From: DASVDK01 sp036381125 [NCBI: Thermodesulfobacteriota bacterium]
GTDB lineage: Bacteria > DASVDK01
DNA: 17,303 bases
Direction of reading: 5' to 3'
NCBI GenBank assembly: GCA_036381125.1
Contig: DASVDK010000253.1
Span: 1-17,303, forward strand
Under the pieces are notes generated by a model, which saw nothing but the letters and a program-made list of their open reading frames with translations, ran no database searches and was not told where the DNA came from. Below, one piece after another: positions 1,596 to 17,303 of the stretch. How positions within the stretch are numbered: position 1 is the stretch's first letter; each line of letters begins with the position of its first letter. Made by a program: the position numbers and the translations under genes.

Positions 1596-1640
1596 AGTGA
1601 CTCCGGGGGGCCTGACGGCCCGCAGAGACGGCCGCGGCCG

Positions 1641-2408: not shown

Positions 2409-2423
2409 CTTCTCCTCCCTGGA

Positions 2424-3302: not shown

Positions 3303-4159
3303 TTCGCGCCCCAGATGCCGCGCGGCCGGAAGAGGAGGCAGAGCGCCATGACGGTGAAGGCCACCGCCTCCTTGTAGACCGACGGGATGACGAGGGTCGA
3401 CCACTCCTGCGCCAGGCCGATGACGGCCGCGCCGCCGAGGGCGCCGTACGGGTTGCCGATGCCGCCGAGGATGGCCGAGGCGAAGATCGGGATGATGAGA
3501 TCCCAGCCCATGTTCGGCTGGATGACGAGGTTGAGGCCGAGGAGCACGCCGCCGACGGCCGCTGAGAGCACCGCGATCACCCACATGGCGATCCGCGCGC
3601 GCTCCACGTCGACCCCGGCGATCTGGCAGAGGACCGGGTTGTCGGCCATCGCCCGCAGGATGCGGCCGAGCTTCGTGCGGGAGAGGAGCAGGTGGAGCGC
3701 CAGGGCCAGGACGAGCGCGGTCAGGATGGTCGCCATCTGGTTCGGCGTGAGGCGCACCGGCCCGAAGACCTTCGCCCGCTGGAGCGGCACGGCGTACTGG
3801 AAGAGCTCGCTGCCGAAGAGGAGCAGCACGAGGTGCCGCAGCACGAACGACACGCCGATGGAGATGATGAGGAGCTGCACCGTGCTCGTGACCGGCAGCT
3901 TGTCGTACGCCACGCGGGCGATCGGGACGCCGACGAGGAGCGCCAGCCCGACGCCGGCGACGGCGGCCAACCCGAAGGGCCAGCCGGCGAGGACGTTCAA
4001 CGCGAAGGTGGCGTAGGCCCCGAGCATCATGAAGTCGGGGTGCGCCACGTTGGCGAAGCGCGCCACGCCGAAGGTGAGCGAGAGCCCGACGGCCCCGAGG
4101 GCCAGCAGGCTCCCGATCAGGAGGCCGGTGACGCTGAGGTGGACGAGGTCGGCGAGCAT
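3299..4159 (-). CDS. livH: Branched-chain amino acid ABC transporter permease, LivH type
   Basis: 286 residues from ATG 4159. The sequence begins MLADLVHLSVTGLLIGSLLA and continues into GVARFANVAHPDFMMLGAY, the typical LivH N-terminal region. The coupling segment TKLGRILRAMADNPVLCQIAGVDVER and the later ASAILGGIGNPYGALGGAAVIG are family hallmarks. It is an integral inner-membrane protein pairing with LivM, whose GTG start overlaps this stop by 4 nt. No good ribosome binding site precedes the ATG. Instead a strong hairpin (4171-4200) sits 11 nt upstream, so initiation may depend on coupling or be reduced relative to the substrate-binding protein gene. An open extension upstream of 4159 has low-complexity Arg/Ser/Pro composition and was rejected. 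Confidence 0.93.
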   Translation of the reverse strand: MLADLVHLSVTGLLIGSLLALGAVGLSLTFGVARFANVAHPDFMMLGAYATFALNVLAGWPFGLAAVAGVGLALLVGVPIARVAYDKLPVTSTVQLLIISIGVSFVLRHLVLLLFGSELFQYAVPLQRAKVFGPVRLTPNQMATILTALVLALALHLLLSRTKLGRILRAMADNPVLCQIAGVDVERARIAMWVIAVLSAAVGGVLLGLNLVIQPNMGWDLIIPIFASAILGGIGNPYGALGGAAVIGLAQEWSTLVIPSVYKEAVAFTVMALCLLFRPRGIWGAK

Positions 4160-4170
4160 GGAAGCCGGGG

Positions 4171-4200
4171 GGCGGGGGCGCCCCGAGGGCCGCCCCCGCC
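4171..4200 (-). promoter_or_regulatory. Intercistronic hairpin between the binding-protein and LivH genes
   Basis: GGCGGGGGCG (4171-4180) and CGCCCCCGCC (4191-4200) are perfect reverse complements around a 10-nt loop. The stem lies in the 52-nt gap after the substrate-binding protein stop codon and 11 nt before the LivH ATG. There is no U-tract, so it is not an intrinsic terminator. Stable hairpins in this place, as in malE-malF, are known to protect the upstream message and lower downstream expression. That role here is inference. Confidence 0.55.
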
Positions 4201-4211
4201 GGCGGGCGTGG

Positions 4212-5456
4212 CTACGCCGCCTTGATCTCCGCGGCCTTGATCGTCTGCTCGAGGACCCACTTCCCGGACTTGATGCGGTGGATGCCGAAGTCGGTGTAGA
4301 CGTCGCCCGCCGCGTCGAAGTCGCAGGAGCCGGAGGCACCCTCGTAGTTGATCGCCTCCCCCTTCTGGACCAGCGGGGCCGCCTCGGCCCAGGTGCCCAC
4401 CGTCTTGCCGGGAGGGTTCGAGACCTTCCGGATGTTGTCGCGGATGGCGGTGCCGTCGCCGCTCTTCGCGGAGAGCGCGGCGAGCGAGACGACGAGCATG
4501 TGGTCGTACGCCATGGCGGCGAAGAACTCCGGGTCGGTCTTGTAGGCCGCCCGGTAGAGCTTCGTCAGGTGGGCGAGGGCAGGGGAGCCGAGGGTCGGGA
4601 CGGCCTCGACGACGATGATCCCCTCGGCCGCCTCCCGGCCGATGCCCTGGATGAACTGCTGGTTGAAGGCGAAGCCGGGCCCCATCCAGGTGCCGCCGAG
4701 GCCGAGCTGGAACCACTCCTTGAAGACCAGGATGCCGTCGGCCGTGTAGCCGCCGAAGACGATCACGTCCGGCTTGCCGGCGAGCGCCTCCTGCACCTCG
4801 GAGCGGTAGCTCGCCTGGTTCGGGTTGTAGACGACGCGTCCGGTGATCTTCCCGCCGGCCTTCTGGAAGCGCTCGGCGAAGGTGTCGCCGAGGGTGATGC
4901 CGTAGGGGTTGTTGAGGAGGACGAGCGCCGCGCTCTTGAAGCCGAGCTTCTGCGCGGCGGTCGTGTAGATGCTGCTCACCAGGACCTGGGAGGTGTAGGT
5001 CCGGTAGAGGAAGTCGTCGTCCTGGAAGGTGGTCACGGCCGAGGAGCTGGACACGTTGAAGTGCGGGATCTTCGCCGCCGCCGTGAGCGGCGCGACCGCG
5101 AGCGTGACCGCCGACGACCAGGTGCCGAGGAGGACGTTGACGCGGTCGACCTCGATGAGCTTCTTGGCGGCGCGGACCGCCGCGTCGGGGTTGGTCTGGC
5201 CGTCCTCGACGAGGAGCTGGATCGGCCGGCCGCCGATGCCGCCCTGCGTGTTGATGTCGTCGGCGACGATCCTGTACGTGTTCGCGAGGATGGTGCCGTA
5301 CACGGAGCCGGCGCCGGTCAGCGGGCTCAGCGTGCCGATCCTGATCGGCCCCGAGCCCTGGGCCACGGCCGCGCGCGGGAAGCCGAGGTTGCCGGCGAGC
5401 AGGGCGGTGCCGCCGACCCCCGCGGTGGTGAGGAACCGGCGCCTGTCGAGCCTCAT
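4212..5456 (-). CDS. Liv-type ABC transporter substrate-binding protein, Tat-exported
   Basis: 414 residues from ATG 5456. A GTG six bases further upstream is in frame, but the GGGAGG ribosome binding site overlaps it, so the ATG is the better start. The N-terminus MRLDRRRFLTTAG contains a twin-arginine motif (Arg5-Arg6-x-Phe8-Leu9), followed by a hydrophobic stretch and an AVA-Q cleavage site near residue 32, indicating export folded through Tat. The mature part starts IRIGTLSPLTGAGS, the classic opening of periplasmic type-I binding proteins of the LivJ/AmiC family. VEDGQTNPDAAVRAAKKLI and FGGYTADGILVFKEW also fit. It presumably captures the ligand in the periplasm and passes it to LivHM. 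It lies between the ATPase genes and the permease genes, with its own candidate promoter and a hairpin after it. Ligand is not certain: branched-chain or aromatic amino acids fit the context. Confidence 0.92.
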   Translation of the reverse strand: MRLDRRRFLTTAGVGGTALLAGNLGFPRAAVAQGSGPIRIGTLSPLTGAGSVYGTILANTYRIVADDINTQGGIGGRPIQLLVEDGQTNPDAAVRAAKKLIEVDRVNVLLGTWSSAVTLAVAPLTAAAKIPHFNVSSSSAVTTFQDDDFLYRTYTSQVLVSSIYTTAAQKLGFKSAALVLLNNPYGITLGDTFAERFQKAGGKITGRVVYNPNQASYRSEVQEALAGKPDVIVFGGYTADGILVFKEWFQLGLGGTWMGPGFAFNQQFIQGIGREAAEGIIVVEAVPTLGSPALAHLTKLYRAAYKTDPEFFAAMAYDHMLVVSLAALSAKSGDGTAIRDNIRKVSNPPGKTVGTWAEAAPLVQKGEAINYEGASGSCDFDAAGDVYTDFGIHRIKSGKWVLEQTIKAAEIKAA

Positions 5457-5461
5457 GGCCA

Positions 5462-5467
5462 CCTCCC
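5462..5467 (-). promoter_or_regulatory. Ribosome binding site that selects ATG 5456
   Basis: GGGAGG on the minus strand lies 5 nt before ATG 5456 and covers the first base of the alternative GTG at 5462. A ribosome cannot use this site for the GTG, which decides the start of the substrate-binding protein. Confidence 0.75.
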
Positions 5468-5484
5468 GGTCAAGTTAAAACAAC

Positions 5485-5493
5485 ATTATATCA
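5485..5493 (-). promoter_or_regulatory. Candidate extended -10 promoter for the substrate-binding protein gene
   Basis: On the minus strand the sequence reads TGATATAAT, a perfect extended -10 element (TGnTATAAT). Its TGA is also the stop codon of livF. It sits in an AT-rich patch of about 30 nt within very GC-rich DNA, and a start of transcription about 6-7 nt downstream would give a leader of about 22 nt. The -35 position 17 bp upstream (GAGGGA) is poor, which extended -10 promoters tolerate. Confidence 0.5.
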
Positions 5494-6204
5494 CATGACG
5501 CCTCGCGTCCCTCCGAGGTAGAGCCGGCCCACCTCCTCGTCGGCGAGCAGCGTGGAGCCCGGCCCCTCGAGGCGGTTGCGGCCGCCGGCGAGCACGTAGC
5601 CGCGGTGCGACAGGGCGAGGGCCTCGCGGGCGTTCTGCTCGACGAGCAGGATCGCGACCCCGGCCCGGTTGATCTCGACGATCTTCGCGAAGACCGTCTC
5701 GACCATGAGCGGCGAGAGCCCGGCCGACGGCTCGTCGAGGAGGAGGAGGGCCGGGTCGAGCATGAGCGCGCGCCCCATGGCGACCATCTGGCGCTCACCG
5801 CCCGAGAGCGCGCCGACCTTCAGGCGCCGTTTGGCGGCCAGGTTGGGAAAGAGCGCCGCCACCTGCTCGAGCCGCTCGCGCACGCCGCCCTGCCGCGCGA
5901 CCGCGCCGATCTCGAGGTTCTCCTCGACCGTGAGCGAGGGGAAGACGTTCTCGACCTGCGGCACGTAGGAGATGCCGCGCCGGACGATCGCCTCGGGCTT
6001 GAGGGCGCCGATCGGCTCGCCCCGGAAGCGGATCTCTCCGCCGGTCGGCCGGAGGAGCCCGAAGACGGTCTTCATCAGGGTGGACTTGCCGGCGCCGTTG
6101 GGACCGACGAGGGTGACGATCTCGCCCTCGCCGACGCGGACGTCCACGCCGTGGAGGATCTCCATGCCGCCGTAGCCGGCGCGGACGCCGCTAACCTCGA
6201 GCAT
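5491..6204 (-). CDS. livF: Branched-chain amino acid ABC transporter ATP-binding protein, LivF type
   Basis: 237 residues, normal for LivF. The ATPase shows Walker A GPNGAGKST at 34-42, a Q-loop in SYVPQVENVFPSLTVEENL, the ABC signature LSGGERQ at 133-139 and Walker B LLLLDEP at 153-159. The usual switch histidine position reads VEQNAREAL, with Gln replacing His, which is the normal state in LivF proteins. It works on the cytoplasmic face with LivG to power uptake. Its ATG lies inside the end of livG (14-nt overlap), so the two are translationally linked. Its stop codon is embedded in a candidate promoter for the next gene. Confidence 0.95.
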   Translation of the reverse strand: MLEVSGVRAGYGGMEILHGVDVRVGEGEIVTLVGPNGAGKSTLMKTVFGLLRPTGGEIRFRGEPIGALKPEAIVRRGISYVPQVENVFPSLTVEENLEIGAVARQGGVRERLEQVAALFPNLAAKRRLKVGALSGGERQMVAMGRALMLDPALLLLDEPSAGLSPLMVETVFAKIVEINRAGVAILLVEQNAREALALSHRGYVLAGGRNRLEGPGSTLLADEEVGRLYLGGTRGVM

Positions 6205-6967
6205 GCTTCCGGCCGAGGTAGGCCTCGAGCACGCGGGGGTCGCGCCGGACGTGCTCCGGCGTCCCCTCGGCGAGCGTGCGCCCCTCGCTCATGACGATGA
6301 CCGGGTCGCAGAGGCTCATGACGAGGTCCATGTCGTGCTCGATGAGGAGCACCGTGACGCCCCGCTCGGTGGCCAGCCGGCGGATGTAGCCGGCCAGCTC
6401 CCCCATGAGCGTGGGGTTCACGCCGGCCCCCGGCTCGTCGAGGAGGAGGAGCTTCGGCTCGGCCATCATGATCCGCCCGAGCTCGAGGAGCTTCTTCTGG
6501 CCGCCCGAGAGGGTCGAGGCGAGCTGGTCCCGGACGCCGGCGAGGCCGAGGAACGCGAGGACGTCGTCGGCCCTGGCGCGCAGGCGCGCCTCCTCCTCGC
6601 GGACCGCGCGGCCGCGCAGCCAGGGCGCCCAGAGCCGCTCGCCGAGCTGCTCCCCCGGGACCACCATCAGGTTCTCGAGAACGGTGAGGTCCTTGAACTC
6701 GCGAGGGATCTGGAAGGTGCGGCAGAGGCCCCGGCGGAAGACCCGGTGAGGCTTCTCGCCGGTGATGTCGGCGCCGTCGAAGACGATGCGGCCGGCGTCT
6801 GGCGTGTGGACGCCGGCGATCAGGTTGAAGAGCGTCGTCTTGCCGGCGCCGTTGGGGCCGATGAGGCCGGTGATGGCCCCCTCCCGGACGCCGAGCGTGC
6901 ACGCCTCGACGGCGTGCACGCCACCGAACGCCTTGGCGAGCGACTCGACCGAGAGGAGTGTCCTCAC
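6191..6967 (-). CDS. livG: Branched-chain amino acid ABC transporter ATP-binding protein, LivG type
   Basis: 258 residues from a GTG at 6967 that overlaps the stop of the oxidoreductase gene (GTGA). The frame is open for a long distance upstream as an antisense-like shadow inside the oxidoreductase gene, so the coupled GTG was chosen. It begins VRTLLSVESLAKAFGGVHAV. It has Walker A GPNGAGKTT at 37-45, the LivG-typical RTFQIPREFKDLTVLENL at 83-100, signature LSGGQKK at 153-159, Walker B LLLLDEP at 173-179 and switch His211. The C-terminal SEGRTLAEGTPEHVRRDPRVLEAYLG is a LivG hallmark. It pairs with LivF as the ATPase heterodimer of the importer. Confidence 0.94.
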   Translation of the reverse strand: MRTLLSVESLAKAFGGVHAVEACTLGVREGAITGLIGPNGAGKTTLFNLIAGVHTPDAGRIVFDGADITGEKPHRVFRRGLCRTFQIPREFKDLTVLENLMVVPGEQLGERLWAPWLRGRAVREEEARLRARADDVLAFLGLAGVRDQLASTLSGGQKKLLELGRIMMAEPKLLLLDEPGAGVNPTLMGELAGYIRRLATERGVTVLLIEHDMDLVMSLCDPVIVMSEGRTLAEGTPEHVRRDPRVLEAYLGRKHARG

Positions 6968-9900
6968 CCCGCCCCCGCGCCGACCGGCGGAGGCGTCTGC
7001 GTGGGCGGCGTCGCGGCGCCGAGGCGCGCGGCGAGCTCGGCCGCCTTCGCGCGGAACGCGGCGACGCTCCGCAGCTTGATCTGCTCGTAGCCCCGGACCA
7101 TGTCCGGCAGCTCCGCCAGGGCGACGGCCGTGTCGTAGTCGCGCGCCGCGAGCGCCTTCGCCACGAGCCCGCGGTACTCCTCCGGCAGGGCGCGCTCGAC
7201 GCGCCGCACCTCGGTGCGGCCGAAGGGGTCGAGCGGCGTGCCGCGCAGGCCCTTGAGGCCGCGGAGCATCGCCAGCGCCGGCCGGAACCAGGGCCCGAGC
7301 CTGAGCTTGCGCCGAAGCCCCATGGCGCGCAGGAGCGGCGGGTGGAGGTTGTACGAGACCCGCGCCCCCTCGGGGAAGTACCGCCGGATCTCGGCCGTCG
7401 GCTCGTCGCGCAGGAGCAGGCGCGCCACCTCGTACTCGTCCTTGTACGCCATGAGCTTGAAGAGGTTCCGGGCGAACGCCTCGGCGAGGGCCGTGGAGCC
7501 GGGGCGCAGCGTCTGCTCCTCTCGCGCGACGCGCGCGACCGCGTCGACGTATCGCTCCGCGTAGCGGGCGTTCTGGTATGCGACCAGCTCGGGGATCCGC
7601 GTCTCGAGGAGTCGCAGAAGCTCGCCCGTCGCCCCCGACGCCGCGAGGAGCCGATCGGCCGCCGCCCGCTCGCGGGTCGAGAGCCGGTCGGCCGGCGAGG
7701 CCGCGTGCCCGTTGCCCCGCGACGCGACCTCCGGCGCCGGCTGCCCGGAGGCGGCCCGCAGGGCGGCGTCGACCGCCGCGCGGTCGGCGACGTACCGGCG
7801 GCCCCAGCGGAACGCCTGCCGGTTCATCTCGACCGCGACGCCGTTCAGCTCGATGGCCCGCTCGATCGAGTCGGCCGAGAGCGGGATGTAGCCCGCCTGG
7901 TAGGCGGCGCCGAGCGTCACCAGGTTGGACGCCATGTGGTCCGCGAAGAGCCCCTCGGCGATCGCCTCGGCGTCGAGGTAGACGTTGCGCCCCTCGCGCG
8001 TGTGCCGCTCGATCGTGCGGGTGAGGACGAACGGGTCCGGGAAGTGGGTGGCCACGTTCGCCACCATCTCGCCGGTCGCCACCCGGCTCACGCTCACGAC
8101 CGCCGACGTCCGATCGGGGTGGGCCCGCTCGAGGTTCTTCGGGCTCGCGGCGCCCAGGAGATCGAACCCGAGGTAGAGGTCGGCCTCGCCCGCCCCCACG
8201 CGGTTGGCGACGTCGGGCGACTCGCGGTCGAAGAGCTTGAGGCTCGACACCACCGGCCCGCCCTTCTGCGAGAGGCCGGTCTGGTCGAGGCCGCGCACGC
8301 GCCGGCCGTCGAGCAGGGCGGCCGTGCCGAGCAGCGCGTTCACCGTGACGACGCCCGTGCCGCCGATCCCCATCATGTAGATGGCGTACCCCTCGCGGAA
8401 GGGCGCCTTGTAGGCCGGCTCGGGCAGCGGCACCTCCACCTTCGGGATCGGACGCTTCGGCTTCGCGGCCGGCAGGGGCGTCGGCGCGCCGACCGGCTCC
8501 ACCGTGAGGAACGACGGGCAGTCGCCCTTGAGGCAGGAGTAGTCCTTGTTGCACGACGACTGGTGGATGCGCGTCTTGCGGCCGAACGCCGTGTCGACCG
8601 GCTGCACCGAGAGGCAGTTCGACTTGACGCCGCAGTCGCCGCACCCCTCGCAGACCGCCTCGTTGATGAAGACCCGCATCGCCGGCTCGGCCTGCTTGCC
8701 GCGCTTGCGCAGCCGGCGCTTCTCGGCCGCGCACTGCTGGTCGTAGACGAGGACGGTCGTGCCCGGCGTGTCGCGCAGCCGGGCCTGCACCTCGAGCAGC
8801 TCGTCCCGATGGTGGACGGTCGTGAGCTTCGCCAGCGGCGCCGCCTTCCACTTCTCCGGGTCGTCGGAGACCAGGGCGATCGCCGTGACCCCCTCGGCCT
8901 CGAGCTGGCGCGTCAGCGCCGGGATCGGCACCTGACCGGCCGCCTGCTGGCCGCCGGTCATGGCCACGGCGTTGTTGTAGAGGACCTTGTAGGTGATGTT
9001 GGCGCCGGACGCCACGGCCTGCTTGATGGCGAGGTAGCCCGAGTGGAAGAGGGTCCCGTCGCCGATGTTCTGGAACATGTGGGTCATCGTGGTGAAGGGC
9101 GCCATCCCGACCCACTGCACCCCTTCGCCGCCCATGGGGGTCACGCCCACCGTGTGCCGGTCCGGGAGGAACATCGCCATGGTGTGGCAGCCGATGCCGC
9201 CGCCGGCCGCGGAGCCCTCGGGCACCTGCGTGGACGTGTTGTGCGGGCAGCCCGAGCAGAAGTACGGCGTCCGGGCGACCGTGAGCGGCAGCGCGCGCCG
9301 CTCGATCGCCTCGAGCGTGGCGATGCGGGCGCGCGCCGACTCCGGCAGCGCGAGGCCGGCGAGGCGGCGTGCGAGGAGCCGCGTCACGAACTCCGGCTCC
9401 AGCTCCCCGTACGCCGGGACGAGCGGCCGTCCCTCCTCGTCGGCCTTGCCGACGACGTTCGGCCGGTCGGCCGTGTGGTAGAGGATGTCGCGGATGAACA
9501 GCTCGAGGAAGGGCCGCTTCTCCTCGACCACGACGATCTCGCGCAGCCCGCGGGCGAACTCCTTCACGACTTCCCGCTCGAGCGGGTAGAGCATCCCGAA
9601 CTTGAGGAGCCGGATGCCGGCCTCCCGCAGGGCCGCCTCGTCGAGGCCGAGGTCGCGCAGCGCCTGCTGCACGTCGTACCAGGTCTTGCCGGCGGCCACG
9701 ATGCCGATCCGGTCGTGCTCGCCGCGCACGACGATGCGGTTCAGCCGGTTCACCGCCGCGTAGAGCCGGGCCGCCACGAGCCGCGTCTCGCGCGTCCGCT
9801 CGAGGTCGAGCGAGTGCGGCGTCATGAGCCGCGGGTCCACCTGCGCCGCGAACGGCTGTCCACCCGGCCGGAAGTCGGGCAGCACCGGCCGCACGCGATC

Positions 9901-10557
9901 GGGGGACACCTCGGCCGTGGCGGCCTCGTCGCAGACGTTCGTCACGCACTTGACGCCCACCCAGAGCCCCGAGTAGCGCGACAGGGCGTAGCCGTGCAGG
10001 CCGAGGTCGAGGACCTCCTGGATGCTGCCGGGGTAGATGACCGGGAACTGGGCGTCGTAGAAGGTGGGCTCGCTGGCGGACGGGATGGTGGAGGACTTGG
10101 AGTGCGGGTCGTCGCCCGCTAGCGCCAGCACCCCGCCGTGCGGGCCTACGCCGGCGAGGTTCGCGTGCTTGAAGATGTCGCCCGAGCGGTCGACGCCCGG
10201 GCCCTTGCCGTACCACATCCCGTAGACGCCGTCGTACTTCGCGCCCGGGAAGAGGTGCGCCATCTGGCTGCCGAAGATGGCCGTCGCCGCCAGCTCCTCG
10301 TTGAGCCCGTTCGAGAAGACGATGTCGTGCTCGCGCAGGATGGCGCCGGCGCGCTCGATGGTGGTGTCGAGGCCGGCCAGCGGCGAGCCGCGGTAGCCCG
10401 AGACGAAGGCGGCGGTCCTGAGGCCGCGCCGCCGGTCGGCGCGGTGCTGGTCGATCAGCAGGCGCACGAACGCCTGCGTGCCGTTGAGGTAGATGGTCCC
10501 CTCCTCGAGCCGGTACTTGTCCTCCAGGGAGAAGGGGATGACGCGGGCTGTGCTCAC
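6964..10557 (-). CDS. Indolepyruvate ferredoxin oxidoreductase family protein, fused alpha-beta form
   Basis: 1197 residues, the size of the bacterial single-chain family. It oxidatively decarboxylates aryl- or branched 2-oxoacids with CoA to acyl-CoA, passing electrons to ferredoxin; it is cytosolic. The N-terminal pyrimidine-binding part contains FVSGYRGSPLAGLD (51-64) and SNGLNEELAA. The TPP region contains FCSGCPHNTST (433-443), GGGIGCHTM (452-460) and NIGDGTLFHSG (497-507). A cysteine-rich segment has Cys636, 639, 642, 648, 669, 675 and 680, fitting Fe-S ligation. The gamma-like domain has MMGIGGTGVVTVNALL near 728, and a helical tail of about 250 residues follows. GTG start with AAGGAGG 5 nt upstream. 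It is the first gene of the minus-strand operon, coupled to livG by a 4-nt overlap. The co-operonic leucine-type dehydrogenase would supply its 2-oxoacid (inference). Confidence 0.95.
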   Translation of the reverse strand: MSTARVIPFSLEDKYRLEEGTIYLNGTQAFVRLLIDQHRADRRRGLRTAAFVSGYRGSPLAGLDTTIERAGAILREHDIVFSNGLNEELAATAIFGSQMAHLFPGAKYDGVYGMWYGKGPGVDRSGDIFKHANLAGVGPHGGVLALAGDDPHSKSSTIPSASEPTFYDAQFPVIYPGSIQEVLDLGLHGYALSRYSGLWVGVKCVTNVCDEAATAEVSPDRVRPVLPDFRPGGQPFAAQVDPRLMTPHSLDLERTRETRLVAARLYAAVNRLNRIVVRGEHDRIGIVAAGKTWYDVQQALRDLGLDEAALREAGIRLLKFGMLYPLEREVVKEFARGLREIVVVEEKRPFLELFIRDILYHTADRPNVVGKADEEGRPLVPAYGELEPEFVTRLLARRLAGLALPESARARIATLEAIERRALPLTVARTPYFCSGCPHNTSTQVPEGSAAGGGIGCHTMAMFLPDRHTVGVTPMGGEGVQWVGMAPFTTMTHMFQNIGDGTLFHSGYLAIKQAVASGANITYKVLYNNAVAMTGGQQAAGQVPIPALTRQLEAEGVTAIALVSDDPEKWKAAPLAKLTTVHHRDELLEVQARLRDTPGTTVLVYDQQCAAEKRRLRKRGKQAEPAMRVFINEAVCEGCGDCGVKSNCLSVQPVDTAFGRKTRIHQSSCNKDYSCLKGDCPSFLTVEPVGAPTPLPAAKPKRPIPKVEVPLPEPAYKAPFREGYAIYMMGIGGTGVVTVNALLGTAALLDGRRVRGLDQTGLSQKGGPVVSSLKLFDRESPDVANRVGAGEADLYLGFDLLGAASPKNLERAHPDRTSAVVSVSRVATGEMVANVATHFPDPFVLTRTIERHTREGRNVYLDAEAIAEGLFADHMASNLVTLGAAYQAGYIPLSADSIERAIELNGVAVEMNRQAFRWGRRYVADRAAVDAALRAASGQPAPEVASRGNGHAASPADRLSTRERAAADRLLAASGATGELLRLLETRIPELVAYQNARYAERYVDAVARVAREEQTLRPGSTALAEAFARNLFKLMAYKDEYEVARLLLRDEPTAEIRRYFPEGARVSYNLHPPLLRAMGLRRKLRLGPWFRPALAMLRGLKGLRGTPLDPFGRTEVRRVERALPEEYRGLVAKALAARDYDTAVALAELPDMVRGYEQIKLRSVAAFRAKAAELAARLGAATPPTQTPPPVGAGAG

Positions 10558-11002: not shown

Positions 11003-11030
11003 ATGAGACTTCAGTCTCATAGAATGAGAC
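11003..11030. promoter_or_regulatory. Operator-like cluster of three alternating 7-bp half-sites
   Basis: ATGAGAC (11003-11009), its exact reverse complement GTCTCAT (11014-11020) and ATGAGAC again (11024-11030) stand in a row. The first pair forms an 18-bp palindrome (ATGAGACT-TC-AGTCTCAT) and the second pair a 17-bp one with a 3-nt centre. The cluster covers the predicted transcription start. IclR-family proteins such as PcaU and PobR bind palindrome-plus-repeat arrays near their own promoters, so autoregulation by the adjacent protein is likely (inference). Confidence 0.65.
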
Positions 11031-11812
11031 AACCGACCGGGCCCGTGAACAGCGGGCGCACGTTGACGCGCGGGCTGGAGATCCTCTTCGCGGTCATCGA
11101 CGCAGGACGTCCCGTCAGCGTGACGGAGCTGTCGGCCGGGACGGGGCTGCACAAGGCGACCGTGTCACGCATGCTGGCGACGCTGGCGGAGCTGGACTAC
11201 GTGTCCGTGGACCCTCGCACGGGTCTCTACCTGCCCGGCAGTCGCGTCGTGTCCAGGCTGCGTACCTCGCAGCTCGAGAGCCTGCTGCAGGCCTACGCCA
11301 TGCCGATCATGACGGAGCTGCGCGACGAATCCTCGGAGACCGTCGGGCTCTACGTGCCAGTCTGGCCCGACCGCGTCTGCATCGCGGAGGTCGCGAGCCG
11401 TTTGGGCCTGCGACGGACGCACGCGCCCGGCGAGACCTGGCCGCTCACCGTCGGGGCCACGGGGCTCGTCTACCTGGCGCATATGCCCGACGACGAACTG
11501 GATCGACTGGTGAAGGTGAGGCCGCTGCGCGGCATCACGGCGGCTCAGCTCAGGGAACGCGTCGCCGAGGTCCGCCGCAGCGGTGTGGCGATCTCGAGGA
11601 CTGCGACGCACATCCCCGGCATGCTCGGTATGGCGGCGGCGATCCTGTCGTCCGACGGGCGGCCGGTGGCCATGCTGACCGTCTCGGGTCCGATGGAGCG
11701 CTGGAACCCGGAGGTCATGGCGCGCTTCGCGCCTCGGCTGCGCGACGCCGTGTCGCGCCTCTCGCGCCTTCTCGGGTACGAGGATGGGCGGGTGCGCGGT
11801 CGCAAGCGGTGA
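11003..11812 (+). CDS. IclR family transcriptional regulator
   Basis: 269 residues from ATG 11003; ATG 11024 and GTG 11045 are in-frame alternatives, and none has a clear ribosome binding site. The N-terminal winged helix-turn-helix spans about residues 18-80: TLTRGLEILFAVIDAGRPVSVTELS, then GLHKATVSRMLATLAELDYV as the recognition part. The C-terminal effector-binding domain (about 88-260) shows GLYVPVWPDRVCIAEV, PLTVGATGLVYLAH and GVAISRTATHIPGMLGMAAAIL, typical of IclR. The protein should be a DNA-binding dimer or tetramer that senses a small carboxylate or aromatic acid. It precedes the plus-strand operon by 33 nt and presumably controls it and itself through the half-sites at its own start. 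The C-terminus ends in a basic RGRKR tail. Confidence 0.92.
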   Translation: MRLQSHRMRQPTGPVNSGRTLTRGLEILFAVIDAGRPVSVTELSAGTGLHKATVSRMLATLAELDYVSVDPRTGLYLPGSRVVSRLRTSQLESLLQAYAMPIMTELRDESSETVGLYVPVWPDRVCIAEVASRLGLRRTHAPGETWPLTVGATGLVYLAHMPDDELDRLVKVRPLRGITAAQLRERVAEVRRSGVAISRTATHIPGMLGMAAAILSSDGRPVAMLTVSGPMERWNPEVMARFAPRLRDAVSRLSRLLGYEDGRVRGRKR

Positions 11813-11845
11813 GTCGTCGTCGGCACCTGGAACAAGGGGGACGGA

Positions 11846-13057
11846 ATGGCAGCAATCGAGCAGCGAACGCCGGCCATCGGTGACCGGCCGCAGGAGGGCG
11901 TGATCACCGACGAGGGCATCGCCCGGGCGCGGGAGATGATCGGAACGATCCTTCGGCCAGAAGGTCCATACCTGCAGGACGCGACCCCCGACACGCTTCG
12001 CAACTGGTGCAATGGGATCGGCGACATGAACCCGCTGTACCGCGAGGCCGAGTACGGCCGCGCGACTCGGTACGGTAGTCAGATCGCACATCCGATGTTC
12101 CCGATGGCCTACGGCTGGATAGGCCGGACGAGGTGGGGCCTCCCGGGTGTGCACGGCTTCGGCGCCGGGAACGACTGGGAGATGTTCCGCAACATCCGGC
12201 CCGGAGACCGCATCAGCTGCATCGAGCGGATCGTCGGCGTCGAGGAGAAGCCGAGCAAGTTCTCGGGCCGCATGGTCATGCAGTACGTCGAGGCGAGCTT
12301 CATCAACCAGCACGATCAGCTTCTCGCCCGCGTGCTGGGCTGGTGCGCGCGACACGAGCGAAAGGCCGCCCGTGAAGCTGGCAAGTACAAGGACGTCAAG
12401 GCTTACGAGTACACGGCGGAAGAGATCGAGCGGATCGATGCGGCCGTGCTCAACGAGCCGAAGACCATCCGCGGCCGGGAGACCCGGTACTGGGAGGACG
12501 TGCACGAAGGCGAGGAGCTGACGCCGATCGCCCGCGGCCCCCTGTCCCTCATGGACACGATGGGCTTCCTCGTGGCCTCTGGCCGCGGGCACACGCACGG
12601 CGTACTCCTGCAGTCGGCCGCACGGCATCCGGGCCACTACTTCCGGAATCCCGAGGCGGGAGGTGGCGTCGAGTATACGGGCATCGGCCATCACCGGGAG
12701 TCCACGGCGAAGGCCGTCGGTGCGCCTGGCACGTACGACTACGGGCCGCAGAGGCACGCCTGGATGTGCACGCTGGTGACGAACTGGATGGGCGACGCGG
12801 CGTTCCTCAAGCGGCTGCGCTCGGAATGGCGCCGGTTCAATATCTTCGGCGATACGACCTGGTGCAAGGGACGCGTCTCGCGGAAGTACGTGAAGGACGG
12901 CTACGCACTGGTCGACCTCGACATCTGGGGCGAGAACCAGCGGGGCGAGGTCACGACGCCTGGGCTCGCGACGGTCATGCTGCCGGCGAGGGACATCAGG
13001 CTGAAGCCCGTACTGGACGGATCGGGCCTCGACCTCGAATTGCCGGTCGTGCGGTGA
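11846..13057 (+). CDS. MaoC-like/FAS1-like double hot-dog acyl dehydratase (hydratase)
   Basis: 403 residues, two hot-dog domains. The N-terminal half (to about 170) resembles the FAS1-like dehydratase domain, with GDMNPLYREAEYG at 59-71 and AHPMFPMAYG following. The C-terminal half (about 205-400) resembles MaoC, with YWEDVHEGEEL at 215, then WMGDAAFLKRL and FGDTTWCKGRVSRKYV near 315-349. Such proteins add or remove water on enoyl-CoA thioesters. In the first half the usual hydratase-2 His of GDxNPxH is Tyr65, and the second half has ASGRGHTHG (244-252) in place of a clear GDxNPxH, so catalysis may use other residues or another substrate class. AGGGGG precedes the ATG. It is followed by an HMG-CoA-lyase-like gene; mesaconyl-C1-CoA hydratase and itaconyl-CoA hydratase are functional analogues of this fold. 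Confidence 0.85.
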   Translation: MAAIEQRTPAIGDRPQEGVITDEGIARAREMIGTILRPEGPYLQDATPDTLRNWCNGIGDMNPLYREAEYGRATRYGSQIAHPMFPMAYGWIGRTRWGLPGVHGFGAGNDWEMFRNIRPGDRISCIERIVGVEEKPSKFSGRMVMQYVEASFINQHDQLLARVLGWCARHERKAAREAGKYKDVKAYEYTAEEIERIDAAVLNEPKTIRGRETRYWEDVHEGEELTPIARGPLSLMDTMGFLVASGRGHTHGVLLQSAARHPGHYFRNPEAGGGVEYTGIGHHRESTAKAVGAPGTYDYGPQRHAWMCTLVTNWMGDAAFLKRLRSEWRRFNIFGDTTWCKGRVSRKYVKDGYALVDLDIWGENQRGEVTTPGLATVMLPARDIRLKPVLDGSGLDLELPVVR

Positions 13058-13074
13058 GCCACGCGGGGGGCGCG

Positions 13075-13995
13075 ATGCACTTGCCGAAGCGCGTGTGGGT
13101 CACGGATGTCGGCCCTCGGGACGGATTCCAGATCGAGAAGGCGTTCATCCCCACCGACGTGAAGGTCCGGGTCGTCGACCGGCTCGCCGAGGCGGGACTG
13201 CCCGCCATCGAGGTGACCTCCTTTGTCAACCCCAAGCGCGTCCCGCAGATGCGTGACGCGGAGGAGGTCATGGCGAGGATCGAGCGGCGACCCGGCACGA
13301 GCTACCAGGTGCTCGTGCCGAACCAGCGCGGCGTGGAGCGGGCCATCGCCGCCCGAGCAGACCAGATCAACGTCGTGGTGTCCGCGAGCGAGAGCCACAA
13401 CCGCGCGAACCTCGGCATGTCGATCGAACAGTCGTTACAGGGGCTCGACGCGGCCATTCGCATGGCCACCACGGCCGGCGTTCGGGCGCATGGCGGCATC
13501 TCGGTGGCGTTTGGCTGCCCGTTCGAGGGGCTGGTCCCGGTCGACCGCGTCATCTCCATCGCCGGGAGGCTCCTGTCATCTGGGGCGGGGGGCATCACGC
13601 TCGCCGATACTACGGGCATGGCGAACCCGCGAGAGGTCGCCGAGGTCGTGGCGGCCGTCCGCTCGGCGCTGCCTGGAGCCGAGATCCACTGCCACTTTCA
13701 CAACACTCGGGGCATGGGCCTGGCGAACGTCCTCGCGGCGTTGGGGGAAGGCGTCGTGCACTTCGACGCCTCGCTGGCCGGGATGGGCGGATGCCCGTTT
13801 GCTCCCGGGGCGACGGGGAACATCGTCACCGAGGATCTCGTCCACATGCTCGAGGGGATGGGGATCGAGACTGGGATCGACCTCGAGCGGCTCCTGTGCG
13901 TTGCGAGGGAGCTCGAGGCGACCATCGGCCGCCCGCTACCCGGACAGGTGATGAAGGCCGGGCCAAGCAGCGTCCGTCATCCCGTTCCGGCGTGA
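13075..13995 (+). CDS. HMG-CoA lyase family protein (hydroxymethylglutaryl/citramalyl-CoA lyase-like)
   Basis: 306 residues from ATG 13075, preceded by a G-rich tract. An in-frame GTG at 13054 overlaps the hydratase stop and would add seven residues. The TIM-barrel aldolase has DVGPRDGFQ with Arg15 and Asp16, EVTSFVNPKRVPQM (47-59), CHFHNTRGMGLAN with metal-binding His207 and His209, and GGCPFAPGATGN with Cys240 and Asn249. All residues known to be catalytic in HMG-CoA lyase are present. It should cleave a 3-hydroxy-3-methyl-type acyl-CoA to acetyl-CoA plus an oxoacid, using a divalent metal. Authenticated HMG-CoA lyases read RDGLQNE where this reads RDGFQIE, and R-citramalyl-CoA lyase of Chloroflexus belongs to the same family. 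A citramalyl-CoA or similar substrate is therefore possible (inference). Confidence 0.92.
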   Translation: MHLPKRVWVTDVGPRDGFQIEKAFIPTDVKVRVVDRLAEAGLPAIEVTSFVNPKRVPQMRDAEEVMARIERRPGTSYQVLVPNQRGVERAIAARADQINVVVSASESHNRANLGMSIEQSLQGLDAAIRMATTAGVRAHGGISVAFGCPFEGLVPVDRVISIAGRLLSSGAGGITLADTTGMANPREVAEVVAAVRSALPGAEIHCHFHNTRGMGLANVLAALGEGVVHFDASLAGMGGCPFAPGATGNIVTEDLVHMLEGMGIETGIDLERLLCVARELEATIGRPLPGQVMKAGPSSVRHPVPA

Positions 13996-14024
13996 CCGGG
14001 CCGTACGAGCGCCGAGGTGCCGCT

Positions 14025-14810
14025 ATGACCGTGCTGCTCCGAGAGGCCGTGGACGACGGGCGGATCGTCGTGCTCACGCTTAATCGCCCGAGAGTCCGCA
14101 ACGCCTTCGACACGCAGCTCGGGATCGAGCTCGGCGAAGCGATCGCGGCCATCCAGAACGAGGAGCGGGTCCGCGCCGTCGTCCTGACCGGCGCCGGGTC
14201 TCAGGCTTTCTGCGCCGGCGGCGACCTCAAGGAGCGGCACGGCATGACCGAGAAGGCGTGGACGCTCCAGCACCGCATATTCGAGGAGACACACCGCCGG
14301 ATCCGCAACTCGCGCCGTCCCGTCATCGCCGCCGTGAACGGCTACGCGATTGGCGGAGGGTGCGAGCTCGCGCTGTCGACCGACTTCGTGATCGCTTCGG
14401 AAAACGCGATGTTTGGGCTGCCCGAAGTGAAGCGGGGGATCATTCCCGGGGTTGGCGGTACCCAGCTCCTCCCGAGGTTCGTTCCACGCGGTATCGCGAT
14501 GGAGCTCCTCCTGACGGGAGACCTCATCCCGGCCGACGAGGCGATGCGGATCGGCCTCGTCAACCGTGTCGTGCCCCTGGACCGGCTCCTCGACACCACG
14601 CTCGGCATCGCGCGCAAGATCGCGGCCAACTCGCCCCAAGCGGTGTACGCGGCGCGGCGAGCGGTGCGGCTCGGCCTCGACCTCCCCCTGGACCACGCCA
14701 TCGACATCGCGCTCGCGGCGTACGAGACCACTATCGGGCACGGCGACCGGACCGAAGGGGTCCGGGCCTTCATCGAGAAGCGGGCGCCGAACTTCGCCGA
14801 CATGTATTGA
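14025..14810 (+). CDS. Enoyl-CoA hydratase/isomerase family protein (crotonase)
   Basis: 261 residues, the normal crotonase length. ATG 14025 has GAGGTG about 5 nt upstream and the N-terminus MTVLLREAVDDGRIVVLTLN fits the family. The oxyanion-hole segment AFCAGGDLKE lies at 61-70. AAVNGYAIGGGCELAL carries Glu114 and FGLPEVKRGIIPGVGGTQ carries Glu134, matching both catalytic glutamates of mitochondrial crotonase (Glu144 and Glu164), so it is an authentic hydratase candidate. The C-terminus ends with AFIEKRAPNFADMY. It should hydrate a trans-2-enoyl-CoA in the cytosol. It lies 29 nt after the lyase gene. In leucine breakdown the step before HMG-CoA lyase is methylglutaconyl-CoA hydratase, also a crotonase, so that role is possible, but no methylcrotonyl-CoA carboxylase is in view. 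Confidence 0.93.
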   Translation: MTVLLREAVDDGRIVVLTLNRPRVRNAFDTQLGIELGEAIAAIQNEERVRAVVLTGAGSQAFCAGGDLKERHGMTEKAWTLQHRIFEETHRRIRNSRRPVIAAVNGYAIGGGCELALSTDFVIASENAMFGLPEVKRGIIPGVGGTQLLPRFVPRGIAMELLLTGDLIPADEAMRIGLVNRVVPLDRLLDTTLGIARKIAANSPQAVYAARRAVRLGLDLPLDHAIDIALAAYETTIGHGDRTEGVRAFIEKRAPNFADMY

Positions 14811-14831
14811 GCGGCGCTCGCGGACCATCGC

Positions 14832-14838
14832 AAGGAGG
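14832..14838 (+). promoter_or_regulatory. Ribosome binding site that selects GTG 14844
   Basis: AAGGAGG ends on the first base of a GTG at 14838 and lies 5 nt before the next in-frame GTG at 14844. The upstream GTG is inside the site and cannot be used with it, so 14844 is the start of the SucC-like gene. Confidence 0.75.
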
Positions 14839-14843
14839 TGGTC

Positions 14844-15995
14844 GTGCAGCTACGAGAGGCGGTCGCCAAGAGGTACCTGAAGGCCGGCGGCGTGTCGGTC
14901 CCCGAGGGGCATCTGTGCCGATCCGGGACCGAGGCTCGGGAGGCCGCCAGGACGATCGGGCTGCCGGTCGCGGTCAAGGCCCAGCTCAAGCAATGGGGAC
15001 GAGGCAAGGCTGGGTTGGTGCGCCGCTGCGAGACCCTGGCGTCCGTCGAGGAAGCATTCGCGTCGGTACAGCGGTCCGCCACTCGGGACGAGGGCCGGGC
15101 GACGGAGCCGGTCGCGTGTCTCGTCGAGCGATGGATCCCCGGCATGCGGGAAGTCTACCTGGCGGAGATGGTCGATCCGGAGATTGGCGGCAGTACGCTC
15201 CTCTTCTCCCGCTCGGGAGGCGTCGACATCGAGGCGGCATCGGCCCTCGCGCGGCTGCTGGTGCCGGTGAGCACTGGCGTGACGCCCTTCCACGTGCGGC
15301 GTGTCCTCGCGGACTACGGCCTGCCCGGCACGGTCGCGCCCGATCTCGGCCGGCTCCTGGCGAGCGTGAACGACCTCTTCACGCAATGGGACATGCGCCT
15401 GCTCGAGATCAACCCGCTCGGTTGGTCGGTGGACGCGGGGTTTGTCGCGCTCGATGCGAAGATCGTCGTCGACGACAACGCGCTCGCGCGACATCCCGAA
15501 CTCGGCGATCGATATCGCGAGGAGGCGATCGACGATCCGAGCGACGAGCTGCGGATCGAGCACGGCATCGAGTACGTCGCGCTCGACGGCGAGGTCGGCC
15601 TCATCAGCGGCGGGGCCGGCATGACGATGGCCGTCATGGACCTCATCGGCAAGCAGGGCGGCCGGCCGCGCTGCTTCCTCGACTGCAGCCAGAACGCGAC
15701 GAGTGCCGGCTACGGACACGCCCTCGACACGCTCTTCGGCGACCCGCGTACGCGGTCGGTACTGGTGAACATCGTCGGGGGCGGGACGCAGGTCGACCAG
15801 GTGGCAAGCATCTTCGTCGATCTCCTGGCCGCGAGGCGCCGGGCGGGCGAACTGCCGAAGCCTTTCTTCATCCGGCTCGAAGGCACGAACAGCGACCTCG
15901 CGAAGGAGATCCTCCGTGCGAACGGCCTGCCGTGGTTCGACTCGCTCGAGGAGGCGGTGGCGAGCGCCGTTCGGGCGGCGGCGGTGAGCGTATGA
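14844..15995 (+). CDS. SucC-like ATP-grasp acid-CoA ligase, beta subunit
   Basis: 383 residues, matching SucC/MtkA length (about 388). The ATP-grasp domain shows PVAVKAQLK and GRGKAGLV (41-58), and LLEINPLG (187-193) and DAKIVVDDNALARHPEL (205-220) match SucC metal/ATP-site segments. The CoA-ligase part contains SGGAGMTMAVMDLIGKQGG and VLVNIVGGGTQVDQ, then FIRLEGTNSDLAKEIL, all aligned with SucC. With the SucD-like partner it should form a cytosolic ADP- or AMP/GDP-coupled acid-CoA ligase, like succinyl-CoA or malate-CoA ligase. It differs where SucC has FLDVGGGA (here FLDCSQNA) and FGGIxRCD (here VGGGTQVDQ), so the acid may not be succinate. The stop overlaps the next start (ATGA). Confidence 0.88.
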   Translation: MQLREAVAKRYLKAGGVSVPEGHLCRSGTEAREAARTIGLPVAVKAQLKQWGRGKAGLVRRCETLASVEEAFASVQRSATRDEGRATEPVACLVERWIPGMREVYLAEMVDPEIGGSTLLFSRSGGVDIEAASALARLLVPVSTGVTPFHVRRVLADYGLPGTVAPDLGRLLASVNDLFTQWDMRLLEINPLGWSVDAGFVALDAKIVVDDNALARHPELGDRYREEAIDDPSDELRIEHGIEYVALDGEVGLISGGAGMTMAVMDLIGKQGGRPRCFLDCSQNATSAGYGHALDTLFGDPRTRSVLVNIVGGGTQVDQVASIFVDLLAARRRAGELPKPFFIRLEGTNSDLAKEILRANGLPWFDSLEEAVASAVRAAAVSV

Positions 15996-16894
15996 GCATC
16001 CTCGTCGATCGAAGCACGCGGGTCGTCATCCAGGGCATCACCGGACGGCGCGGACGGAGCATGGCGAAGGACATGCGGTCCTACGGGACGCAGGTCGTCG
16101 CCGGCGTCTCCCCGGGGCACGGCGGGGAGATCGTGGAAGGGGTGCCCGTCTTCGATTTCGTCGACGACGCGGTTCGATCCACCGGCGCCAACACCGCGCT
16201 CGTACTCGTGCCCGGGCTGCCGGGGGGCCTCGCTGCGATCACCGAGACGGCCCTGTCGGGCGTGGAGCTCGCCGTTTGGCTTGCCGACCCCGTCCCGATT
16301 CACGACATGATCCGGCTCATGGCGCTGCTGCCGCGGACGGGCATGCGGCTCGTCGGACCCAACAGCCCCGGCCTCATGTCGCCCGGTCGCGCCAAGGTCG
16401 GCTTCATGCCGACGCAGTGCTACGCGCCGGGCCCGGTCGGCGTGGTCTCGAAGAGCGGGTCCCTGTCGTACGAGGTGAGCCTGCGGCTCACGAGGCGGGG
16501 CCTCGGGCAGTCGACGGTCGTCGGGATCGGCGGGGACCCCGTGAAGGGTACAGGCCTCGCCGACGTCGTACGGATGTTCGAGGCCGATCCAGACACGCGC
16601 CTCATCCTTGTCCTCGGCGAGGTCGGCGGCACCGAGGAGTACGAGCTCGCACGGCTGGTCGCTTCCGGGGAGATCCGCAAGCCGGTCGTGGCGCTGATCG
16701 TGGGCGCCACGGCCCCTACCGGCAAGAAGCTGGGCCATGCCGGCGCGATGATGTTCCGAGGCCGCGAGGGCTTCCTCCCCAAGGTGCGCGCGCTGGAGGT
16801 GGCCGGTGTCCGGGTGGCCGACTCGCTCACGACCGTCGCCGACGTCGTCGCGGAGCATCTCGGACCGGCCCCCGCCGGCGAGGCGCGCCGATGA
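15992..16894 (+). CDS. SucD-like acid-CoA ligase, alpha subunit
   Basis: 300 residues. The N-terminal CoA-binding Rossmann domain begins RVVIQGITGRRGRSMAKDM and continues YGTQVVAGVSPGHGG, parallel to SucD. GPNSPGLMSPGRAKVGFMP (122-140) and GVVSKSGSLSYE (150-161) are family motifs. KLGHAGAMM contains His249, the phosphorylated active-site histidine of this ligase family. The substrate-side segment that in SucD reads ITEGIPVHDM is LADPVPIHDM here, so the charged Glu is lost. It forms the alpha-beta ligase with the upstream gene, with which it shares ATGA. The operon context suggests it activates the pathway's starting acid rather than serving the TCA cycle. Malate-CoA ligase and itaconate-CoA ligase are alternatives, and succinyl-CoA ligase cannot be excluded. 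Confidence 0.88.
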   Translation: MSILVDRSTRVVIQGITGRRGRSMAKDMRSYGTQVVAGVSPGHGGEIVEGVPVFDFVDDAVRSTGANTALVLVPGLPGGLAAITETALSGVELAVWLADPVPIHDMIRLMALLPRTGMRLVGPNSPGLMSPGRAKVGFMPTQCYAPGPVGVVSKSGSLSYEVSLRLTRRGLGQSTVVGIGGDPVKGTGLADVVRMFEADPDTRLILVLGEVGGTEEYELARLVASGEIRKPVVALIVGATAPTGKKLGHAGAMMFRGREGFLPKVRALEVAGVRVADSLTTVADVVAEHLGPAPAGEARR

Positions 16895-17303
16895 GCGGGA
16901 CGCGCCCACTGCCGTTCGAGGGGCTGCGCGTCGTCGACCTGACGCACGTGCTCGCCGGGCCCTTCGGGGCGATGATCCTCGCGGACCTCGGCGCGACGGT
17001 GTACAAGATCGAGAAGCCGGGCCGAGGCGACACCACGCGCGGGACCCCGCCGTTCATCAACGGGATCAGTCACTACTTCCTGGCCGTCAACCGCAACAAG
17101 TACAGCGTCGGCGTGGACATCAAGACGCCTCGAGGCCGAGAGGTCGTCGCGGAGCTCGCGCGCCGCAGCGACATCATGATCAACAACTTCAGGCCCGGCG
17201 TCCTGGCCCAATACGGTCTCGACTACGAGAGCCTGAAGGCGGCGAACCCCGGACTCATCTATTGCTCGATCAGTGGCTTCGGCGAGTCGGGTCCCTACCG
17301 CGA
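16891..17303 (+). CDS. CaiB/BaiF family III CoA transferase (N-terminal part, cut by window edge)
   Basis: 137 codons from ATG 16891, open to the window edge. The start overlaps the SucD-like stop (ATGA). The protein begins MSGTRPLPFEGLRVVDLTHV and continues LAGPFGAMILADLGATVYKIEKPGRGD, then VNRNKYSVGVDIKTPRGREV and INNFRPGVLAQYGLDYESL, ending YCSISGFGESGPY. These are standard opening motifs of family III CoA transferases (formyl-CoA, carnitine, succinyl-CoA:malate/citramalate types), which are about 400 residues and interlocked dimers. The catalytic aspartate lies beyond the edge. It probably moves CoA between acids in the same pathway as the ligase. The donor and acceptor cannot be told from this part. 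Confidence 0.92.
   Translation, partial: MSGTRPLPFEGLRVVDLTHVLAGPFGAMILADLGATVYKIEKPGRGDTTRGTPPFINGISHYFLAVNRNKYSVGVDIKTPRGREVVAELARRSDIMINNFRPGVLAQYGLDYESLKAANPGLIYCSISGFGESGPYR

Follow-up and report, generated by a model that had tools for sequence, protein, structure and literature searches.

Positions 1 to 17,303 of contig DASVDK010000253.1 from DASVDK01 sp036381125 (Thermodesulfobacteriota bacterium; assembly GCA_036381125.1) were analysed; this whole stretch of 17,303 nucleotides is called the window hereafter. At its right end, seven genes encode an IclR-family regulator, a MaoC-type protein of 403 amino acids (MaoC403), a lyase of the 3-hydroxy-3-methylglutaryl-coenzyme A (HMG-CoA) lyase family (HMGL), a crotonase, the two subunits of a SucCD-like ligase and a CaiB-type coenzyme A (CoA) transferase. 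In our favoured reading, held with somewhat less than even confidence, this array is a catabolic operon for a branched short dicarboxylate, most likely a C5 compound, which would be degraded via a CoA thioester, hydration and lyase cleavage, the likeliest substrate of the lyase being (R)-citramalyl-CoA. The array resembles a rearranged form of the itaconate and citramalate routes. The observed basis of this reading is the gene content, the preserved catalytic motifs in lyase, crotonase and ligase, the recurrence of SucCD, MaoC403 and crotonase, and the resemblance of the lyase to lyases paired with CaiB; from these we infer the substrate, the order of the steps, the reaction of MaoC403 and the regulation. 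CoA-dependent breakdown of branched dicarboxylates is of a known kind, while the combination of a specialised SucCD, an unassigned putative hydratase and an HMGL-family lyase appears to be new; text searches of open-access literature gave no description of the combination.

According to the proposed pathway, the acid would be converted to its CoA thioester either by the specialised SucCD ligase with ATP or by CaiB, with succinyl-CoA or a different thioester as CoA donor. Double-bond placement and hydration by MaoC403 and the crotonase would then yield a 3-hydroxy-3-methyl dicarboxylyl-CoA, i.e. a tertiary 3-hydroxyacyl-CoA, and the HMGL-family lyase would cleave this product in a metal-dependent retro-aldol reaction to acetyl-CoA and a 2-oxo acid; in the case of (R)-citramalyl-CoA, the best candidate, the products would be acetyl-CoA and pyruvate. 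The IclR regulator would sense the substrate. The logic of thioester formation, hydration and retro-aldol cleavage had been put forward in a preliminary description of this DNA, and the enzyme families as well as the recurrence of SucCD, MaoC403 and crotonase support it.

For the ligase, the motif alignment comprised the pair of the window, 12 pairs linked to MaoC403 and five pairs presumed to be housekeeping from their sequence, not from their context. The SucC loop reads GGGTQVD in the window versus GGIMKCD in the housekeeping copies, and the window and 11 of the 12 linked copies have GGG where the housekeeping type has GGI-KCD (GGL in the remaining linked copy, L076). The SucD motifs PN(S/T)PG-SPG(K/R)AK and SGSLSYE are present in the window (PNSPGLMSPGR, SGSLSYE) and in all 12 linked copies, compared to PNCPGVITPD and SGTLTYE in the housekeeping type, and the phosphohistidine motif GHAGA is kept in the window. 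Identities to the window proteins were 46-55% for linked versus 41-43% for presumed housekeeping SucD, and 36-41% versus 31-34% for SucC; both subunits score below the cut-offs of the curated NCBIfam succinate ligase models. In trees of SucC and SucD, calculated without an outgroup, the five presumed housekeeping copies were placed on one side with full support, and the window formed a long branch lying between these and the linked copies; the SucD tree placed the window and the housekeeping copies on one side with a support of 82, which was not starred and carried a long-branch warning. Since the trees do not decide on which side the window falls, we relied on motifs and identities, and judged by these the ligase is a specialised SucCD and not of the housekeeping type. 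The visible CaiB fragment is, among the fetched loci, closest (58%) to the CaiB of locus L085, which is encoded about 5 kb from MaoC403 there.

Alignments with Protein Data Bank (PDB) entries and a motif table indicated that the lyase residues R15, D16, E46, H207, H209, C240 and N249 are kept, which we take to be the catalytic Arg-Asp pair, the Glu, the two metal-binding His, the Cys and the Asn. Relatives of the lyase were matched on 118 plasmid records, the best 25 being 50-56% identical, and 13 of these were fetched. CaiB directly adjoins the lyase in all 13 fetched loci, whereas three genes separate the two in the window, and tripartite tricarboxylate transporter genes lie near the lyase in 10 of the 13. 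On the Cupriavidus necator plasmid pBB2 and on a plasmid of the archaeon Halomarina, the lyase is followed by LeuC/LeuD-like genes. Through LeuCD enzymes, (R)-citramalate is accessible from citraconate and vice versa, so these adjoining genes fit an (R)-citramalyl-CoA lyase. In its conserved motifs, the window lyase is unlike the leucine-type lyases examined, as detailed below.

The crotonase carries the glutamates of GGGCEL and FGLPE as well as a DLKER-GMT motif. Its recurrence with MaoC403 became visible in one betaproteobacterial family, in which 42 matches to MaoC403 (E<=1e-120) were distributed over 29 of 74 genomes. Flanks were read for 20 further regions and two contigs of genome G002, giving 21 counted loci; L104, with a 67% copy, was left out. 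MaoC403 is 57-61% identical to the window protein in 16 of the 21 loci, the family having 25 matches in this identity range. Near these copies, SucC and SucD were present in 14, CysH (an isochorismatase-fold hydrolase) in 15, a crotonase in 10 and an HMGL in three of the 16 loci, and a partial HMGL was additionally detected at the contig end of L103; a typical order is SucC-SucD-MaoC403-CysH-TctC-crotonase-HMGL (L137). The MaoC403-linked crotonase was the best match of its genome to the window crotonase in all five genomes having one (linked versus other copies 51 versus 45-46%, 51 versus 41%, 50 versus 41%, 50 versus 39-41%, and 56 versus 42%, the last being cut at a contig end), while the sixth genome searched for crotonase, G001, had none linked to MaoC403. 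Likewise, a linked SucC was the best match to the window SucC in six of six genomes, with a small margin in G366 (37 versus 36%). Thus SucCD, MaoC403 and crotonase recur together, and a chance assembly of generic genes was rejected for SucCD and crotonase because the copies adjacent to MaoC403 are the best matches of their genomes.

No NCBIfam model was matched by MaoC403 at E<=0.001. Eight plasmid records encode proteins with 70-73% identity to it, and relatives with up to 78% identity are encoded in 305 stretches found by a scan of genome contigs; among 299 sampled genomes of one phylum, a match at E<=1e-120 was obtained solely in the centre genome itself. Neighbourhoods were counted for the best 80 of the 305 stretches, representing 79 distinct loci with MaoC403 at 70-78% identity, a neighbour being a gene within 8 kb of MaoC403 at set identity thresholds; this group and that of the betaproteobacterial family were separated by identity alone. 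CaiB1 and CaiB2 were each found in 73 of the 79 contigs, a second MaoC of about 290 amino acids resembling itaconyl-CoA hydratase in 65, CysH in 64, a CitE-like lyase in 58, and SucC and SucD in 14; many contigs also contain genes for an SDR, an HIBDH-like dehydrogenase, a lactonase-like protein and Liv-type transporters. In the PDB, the 290-residue MaoC of L001 hits PaIch, an itaconyl-CoA hydratase (1.4e-65), and for the CitE-like enzyme the best NCBIfam model is that of RipC/Ccl, an itaconate lyase (151 bits, cut-off 375). Most of these clusters thus contain, besides MaoC403, a hydratase and a lyase of the itaconate type. As lactonase-, HIBDH- and CysH-like genes accompany MaoC403, the protein could belong to an undescribed, widespread CoA pathway acting not on itaconate itself but on a precursor, such as a C5-C6 dicarboxylate in hydroxylated, lactonised or amidated form. 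In the course of evolution, it would have been combined with either PaIch-like and CitE-like or crotonase and HMGL-like enzymes as alternative ends, the window being one combination; we consider this possible, though our confidence is short of even. Mevalonate and itamalate/paraconate as substrates are ideas only. The preliminary description had inferred a pathway for a branched C5-C6 dicarboxylate that may be an undescribed variant; the recurrent gene set and the PaIch-like and RipC-like neighbours favour such a variant, and the proposed substrate stays conditional.

A route via HMG-CoA would explain crotonase and lyase by known chemistry: the crotonase would hydrate 3-methylglutaconyl-CoA and the lyase would split HMG-CoA into acetyl-CoA and acetoacetate, either as the final part of leucine catabolism or on free 3-methylglutaconate or HMG activated by SucCD. 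The lyase aligns best among solved structures with 6nds (285.6 bits), deposited as an HMG-CoA lyase, and reaches 272 bits with 1ydo, an HMG-CoA lyase presumably from Bacillus subtilis. The NCBIfam model PRK07657, presumably the B. subtilis YngF/AUH type, is second for the window crotonase (250.1 bits, after EchA19 with 250.7) and clearly best for the MaoC403-linked crotonase of L142 (291.6 versus 230.7 bits); moreover, the opposite strand of the window encodes an amino-acid dehydrogenase and an indolepyruvate oxidoreductase. However, neither a methylcrotonyl-CoA carboxylase nor an isovaleryl-CoA dehydrogenase was detected among the genes of the window (13 of them scanned, LivH and LivG judged from sequence, and the right side being cut). 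Three lyases linked to carboxylases all carry QNE, SPKWVPQM and HDTYGQ, in contrast to QIE, NPKRVPQM and HNTRGM in the window; the linkage was judged by eye from sequence, based on a carboxyltransferase in L163 and L171 and a biotin-carboxylase frame in L172. The structure 6nds itself has window-like motifs (QIE, SPKAIP, HFHNTRG). The HMG-CoA route also leaves MaoC403 unexplained, and we regard it as unlikely. The leucine pathway, whose last steps the preliminary description had named as one match, is disfavoured for the lyase by these motifs and by the lack of a carboxylase in the window, cut as it is on the right.

It is likewise improbable that the array is the end of the breakdown of a larger aromatic, cyclic or terpenoid acid, whose upper enzymes would be encoded right of the window or elsewhere and whose 3-hydroxyacyl-CoA would be bulkier. 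The right end of the window is cut, HMGL-family lyases occur in varied contexts, some with an AMP-ligase or acyl-CoA dehydrogenases, and MaoC403 relatives at about 32-36% identity are located on Rhodococcus, Sphingobium and Comamonas plasmids, which is uninformative on function. On the other hand, SucCD-type ligases generally act on small dicarboxylates, MaoC403 clusters carry itaconyl-CoA-hydratase-like and RipC-like enzymes, and no oxygenase was present among those recurrent MaoC403 neighbours that could be named, not every family having been identified. Very unlikely, finally, is a plain itaconate operon with HMGL in place of the CitE-type lyase and MaoC403 as itaconyl-CoA hydratase. Its overall logic is the same, and succinyl-CoA synthetase can activate itaconate, as stated in an excerpt of PMC12290011. 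Yet the separate itaconyl-CoA-hydratase-like protein near MaoC403 in most contigs implies that MaoC403 should act otherwise, and PaIch was not listed when the PDB was searched with MaoC403 by phmmer at E<=1. The two enzymes defining that operon, a PaIch-type hydratase and a CitE-type lyase, are not in the window, and it was therefore rejected; the statement in the preliminary description that the array differs from the Pseudomonas operon with a CitE-type lyase is borne out. The sole lyase of the array is HMGL-like (PF00682), and tblastn at E<=1e-5 detected in the window neither CysH nor the 290-residue MaoC or the CitE-like protein of L001.

Several observations weigh against our reading of the array as a C5 dicarboxylate operon. 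The usual hydratase histidine motif is GD-NPLH, and in the N-terminal domain of MaoC403 the place of this histidine is taken by an invariant tyrosine (Y65, 28 of 28 sequences). The AlphaFold model of MaoC403 is weak (pLDDT 61); Foldseek returned a Chloroflexus MaoC dehydratase as top match, with mesaconyl-CoA hydratase and PaIch among the matches, all at low TM-scores, so we accepted from this model the hot-dog fold alone. The predicted hydratase reaction of MaoC403 is thus the weakest point of the mechanism. CysH is missing from the window, and the substrate may therefore differ from that of the clusters containing it. HMGL occurs in only three of the 16 family loci, and within 8 kb of MaoC403 neither HMGL nor the crotonase type of the window was found in any of the 79 contigs. 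All crotonase-bearing loci come from one family and are thus not independent. Furthermore, the MaoC403-linked HMGL was never the top scorer of its genome against the window HMGL (none of three genomes; margin 2.5 bits in G362), and for this gene a chance assembly was not rejected. Finally, L088_6, a lyase in CaiB context, has QNE and PKW, so that sorting by motifs is imperfect.

Among known systems, the array was compared with the lyase and transferase of Chloroflexus aurantiacus. The (R)-citramalyl-CoA lyase of this organism reportedly belongs to the HMG-CoA-lyase family (work of Friedmann et al. 2006/2007), and its gene is presumably paired with that of succinyl-CoA:D-citramalate CoA-transferase. 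By this description, both systems would combine an HMGL-family lyase with a CaiB transferase and cleave a branched C5 3-hydroxyacyl-CoA, whereas the window adds SucCD, MaoC403 and crotonase. In an excerpt of PMC8307300, the lyase is classified as EC 4.1.3.46 and its CoA-transferase as EC 2.8.3.20. The itaconate-methylsuccinate cluster of Pseudomonas and Cupriavidus (ict, ich, ccl, mcd, msi) shares the logic of CoA activation, hydratase and retro-aldol cleavage; succinyl-CoA synthetase may replace Ict there, and CaiB and SucC/SucD-like genes with a putative activation role are present in the window. Unlike this cluster, the window has a lyase of another superfamily in place of the CitE/HpcH-type (S)-citramalyl-CoA lyase. 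With the lower half of the leucine (Liu/Yng) pathway the array shares crotonase and HMG-CoA-lyase-family enzyme in tandem, and it differs by the extra ligase, transferase and MaoC403 and by the lyase motifs. The MaoC403 clusters of Alpha- and Betaproteobacteria (L001-L086) resemble it in MaoC403, in activation by CaiB and/or SucCD, and in having a hydratase and a retro-aldol lyase, but mostly contain a PaIch-like hydratase and a CitE-like lyase, often accompanied by CysH, SDR, HIBDH-like, lactonase-like and Liv genes.

Coordinates and profile matches agree with the tight array of a regulator and six genes, and with the enzyme types and gene order described earlier (Table 1). The intergenic gaps from IclR to SucC are 33, 17, 29 and 33 bp, followed by 4-bp overlaps of SucC/SucD and SucD/CaiB, which suggests a single operon of seven genes. 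The IclR gene ends 33 bp 5′ of the MaoC403 gene and is therefore probably the first gene of the operon; its best NCBIfam model is BhcR, with 102 bits far below the cut-off of 350. SucC starts with GTG, preceded by AAGGAGG. An Rfam scan gave no match, and the palindromes upstream were short and unconvincing. The GC content of the window is 70.5%.

Table 1. Genes of the array in the window, with supporting profile matches.
Gene product	Position	Strand	Profile matches
IclR-family regulator	11003..11812	+	Pfam HTH_IclR 2.6e-15, IclR_C 5.2e-19
MaoC403, 403-aa MaoC/FAS1_DH hot-dog hydratase/dehydratase (predicted)	11846..13057	+	Pfam FAS1_DH_region 9.1e-19
HMG-CoA-lyase-family aldolase	13075..13995	+	Pfam HMGL-like (PF00682) 1.4e-51; NF004283 367 bits
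Crotonase-type enoyl-CoA hydratase	14025..14810	+	Pfam ECH_1 1.9e-70
SucC-like ligase beta subunit	14844..15995	+	ATP-grasp_2 3e-27; NF001913 252 bits (cut-off 370)
SucD-like ligase alpha subunit	15992..16894	+	NF004230 316 bits (cut-off 336)
CaiB/family III CoA-transferase, 137 aa visible, cut by window end	16891..17303	+	Pfam CoA_transf_3 1.2e-53

The minus strand of the window carries a divergent cluster (531-10557) of a Trp/Leu/Phe-type dehydrogenase (ScyB-like, 347 bits, cut-off 600), an SDR, LivM/H/K, LivF/G and a fused indolepyruvate ferredoxin oxidoreductase, whose products probably import and oxidise amino acids of the aromatic or branched type. Of 14 genomes searched with the indolepyruvate oxidoreductase, eight gave a match, and the nearest protein is only 52% identical. 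Its Liv and SDR proteins are merely 26-47% identical to their counterparts in the other clusters and on the haloarchaeal plasmid and were therefore left outside the proposed pathway. A VOC/glyoxalase-like frame, judged from sequence, lies on the same strand from 1 to about 240 and is cut by the left window end.

Further observations were made at the related loci. In L001-L007, the MaoC403 cluster is located on plasmids from Agrobacterium, Cupriavidus, Salipiger and Qingshengfaniella, of which two plasmids were typed as conjugative; spread of the cluster by transfer is likely. An MmgE/PrpD-like gene together with CaiB genes accompanies the 67% copy of MaoC403 at L104 (2139-9263); L072, which holds three copies, belongs to this genome as well. 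In L137, L142 and L147, a LeuC-like gene (28-29% to LeuC of C. necator pBB2) lies several kb from the SucCD-MaoC403-crotonase-HMGL array. The haloarchaeal plasmid locus L196 (5962-12250) contains CaiB, MBL, CaiB, HMGL, LeuC and LeuD in a row with Liv, SDR and MmgE/PrpD alongside, a bacterial-looking unit in an archaeon. At L158 (8452-13226), in a metagenome-assembled genome of Roseomonas, an HMGL-like lyase, an AMP-ligase-like frame and a crotonase 48% identical to that of the window occur, perhaps a third mode of activation for a similar substrate.

Through branched C5 dicarboxylates, the turnover of soil carbon is connected with CO2-fixation cycles and with itaconate immunity. A putative hydratase with this many relatives, no curated NCBIfam name and conserved operons on chromosomes as well as plasmids points to a common substrate, and the window suggests which other enzymes can perform the same ending of the pathway.

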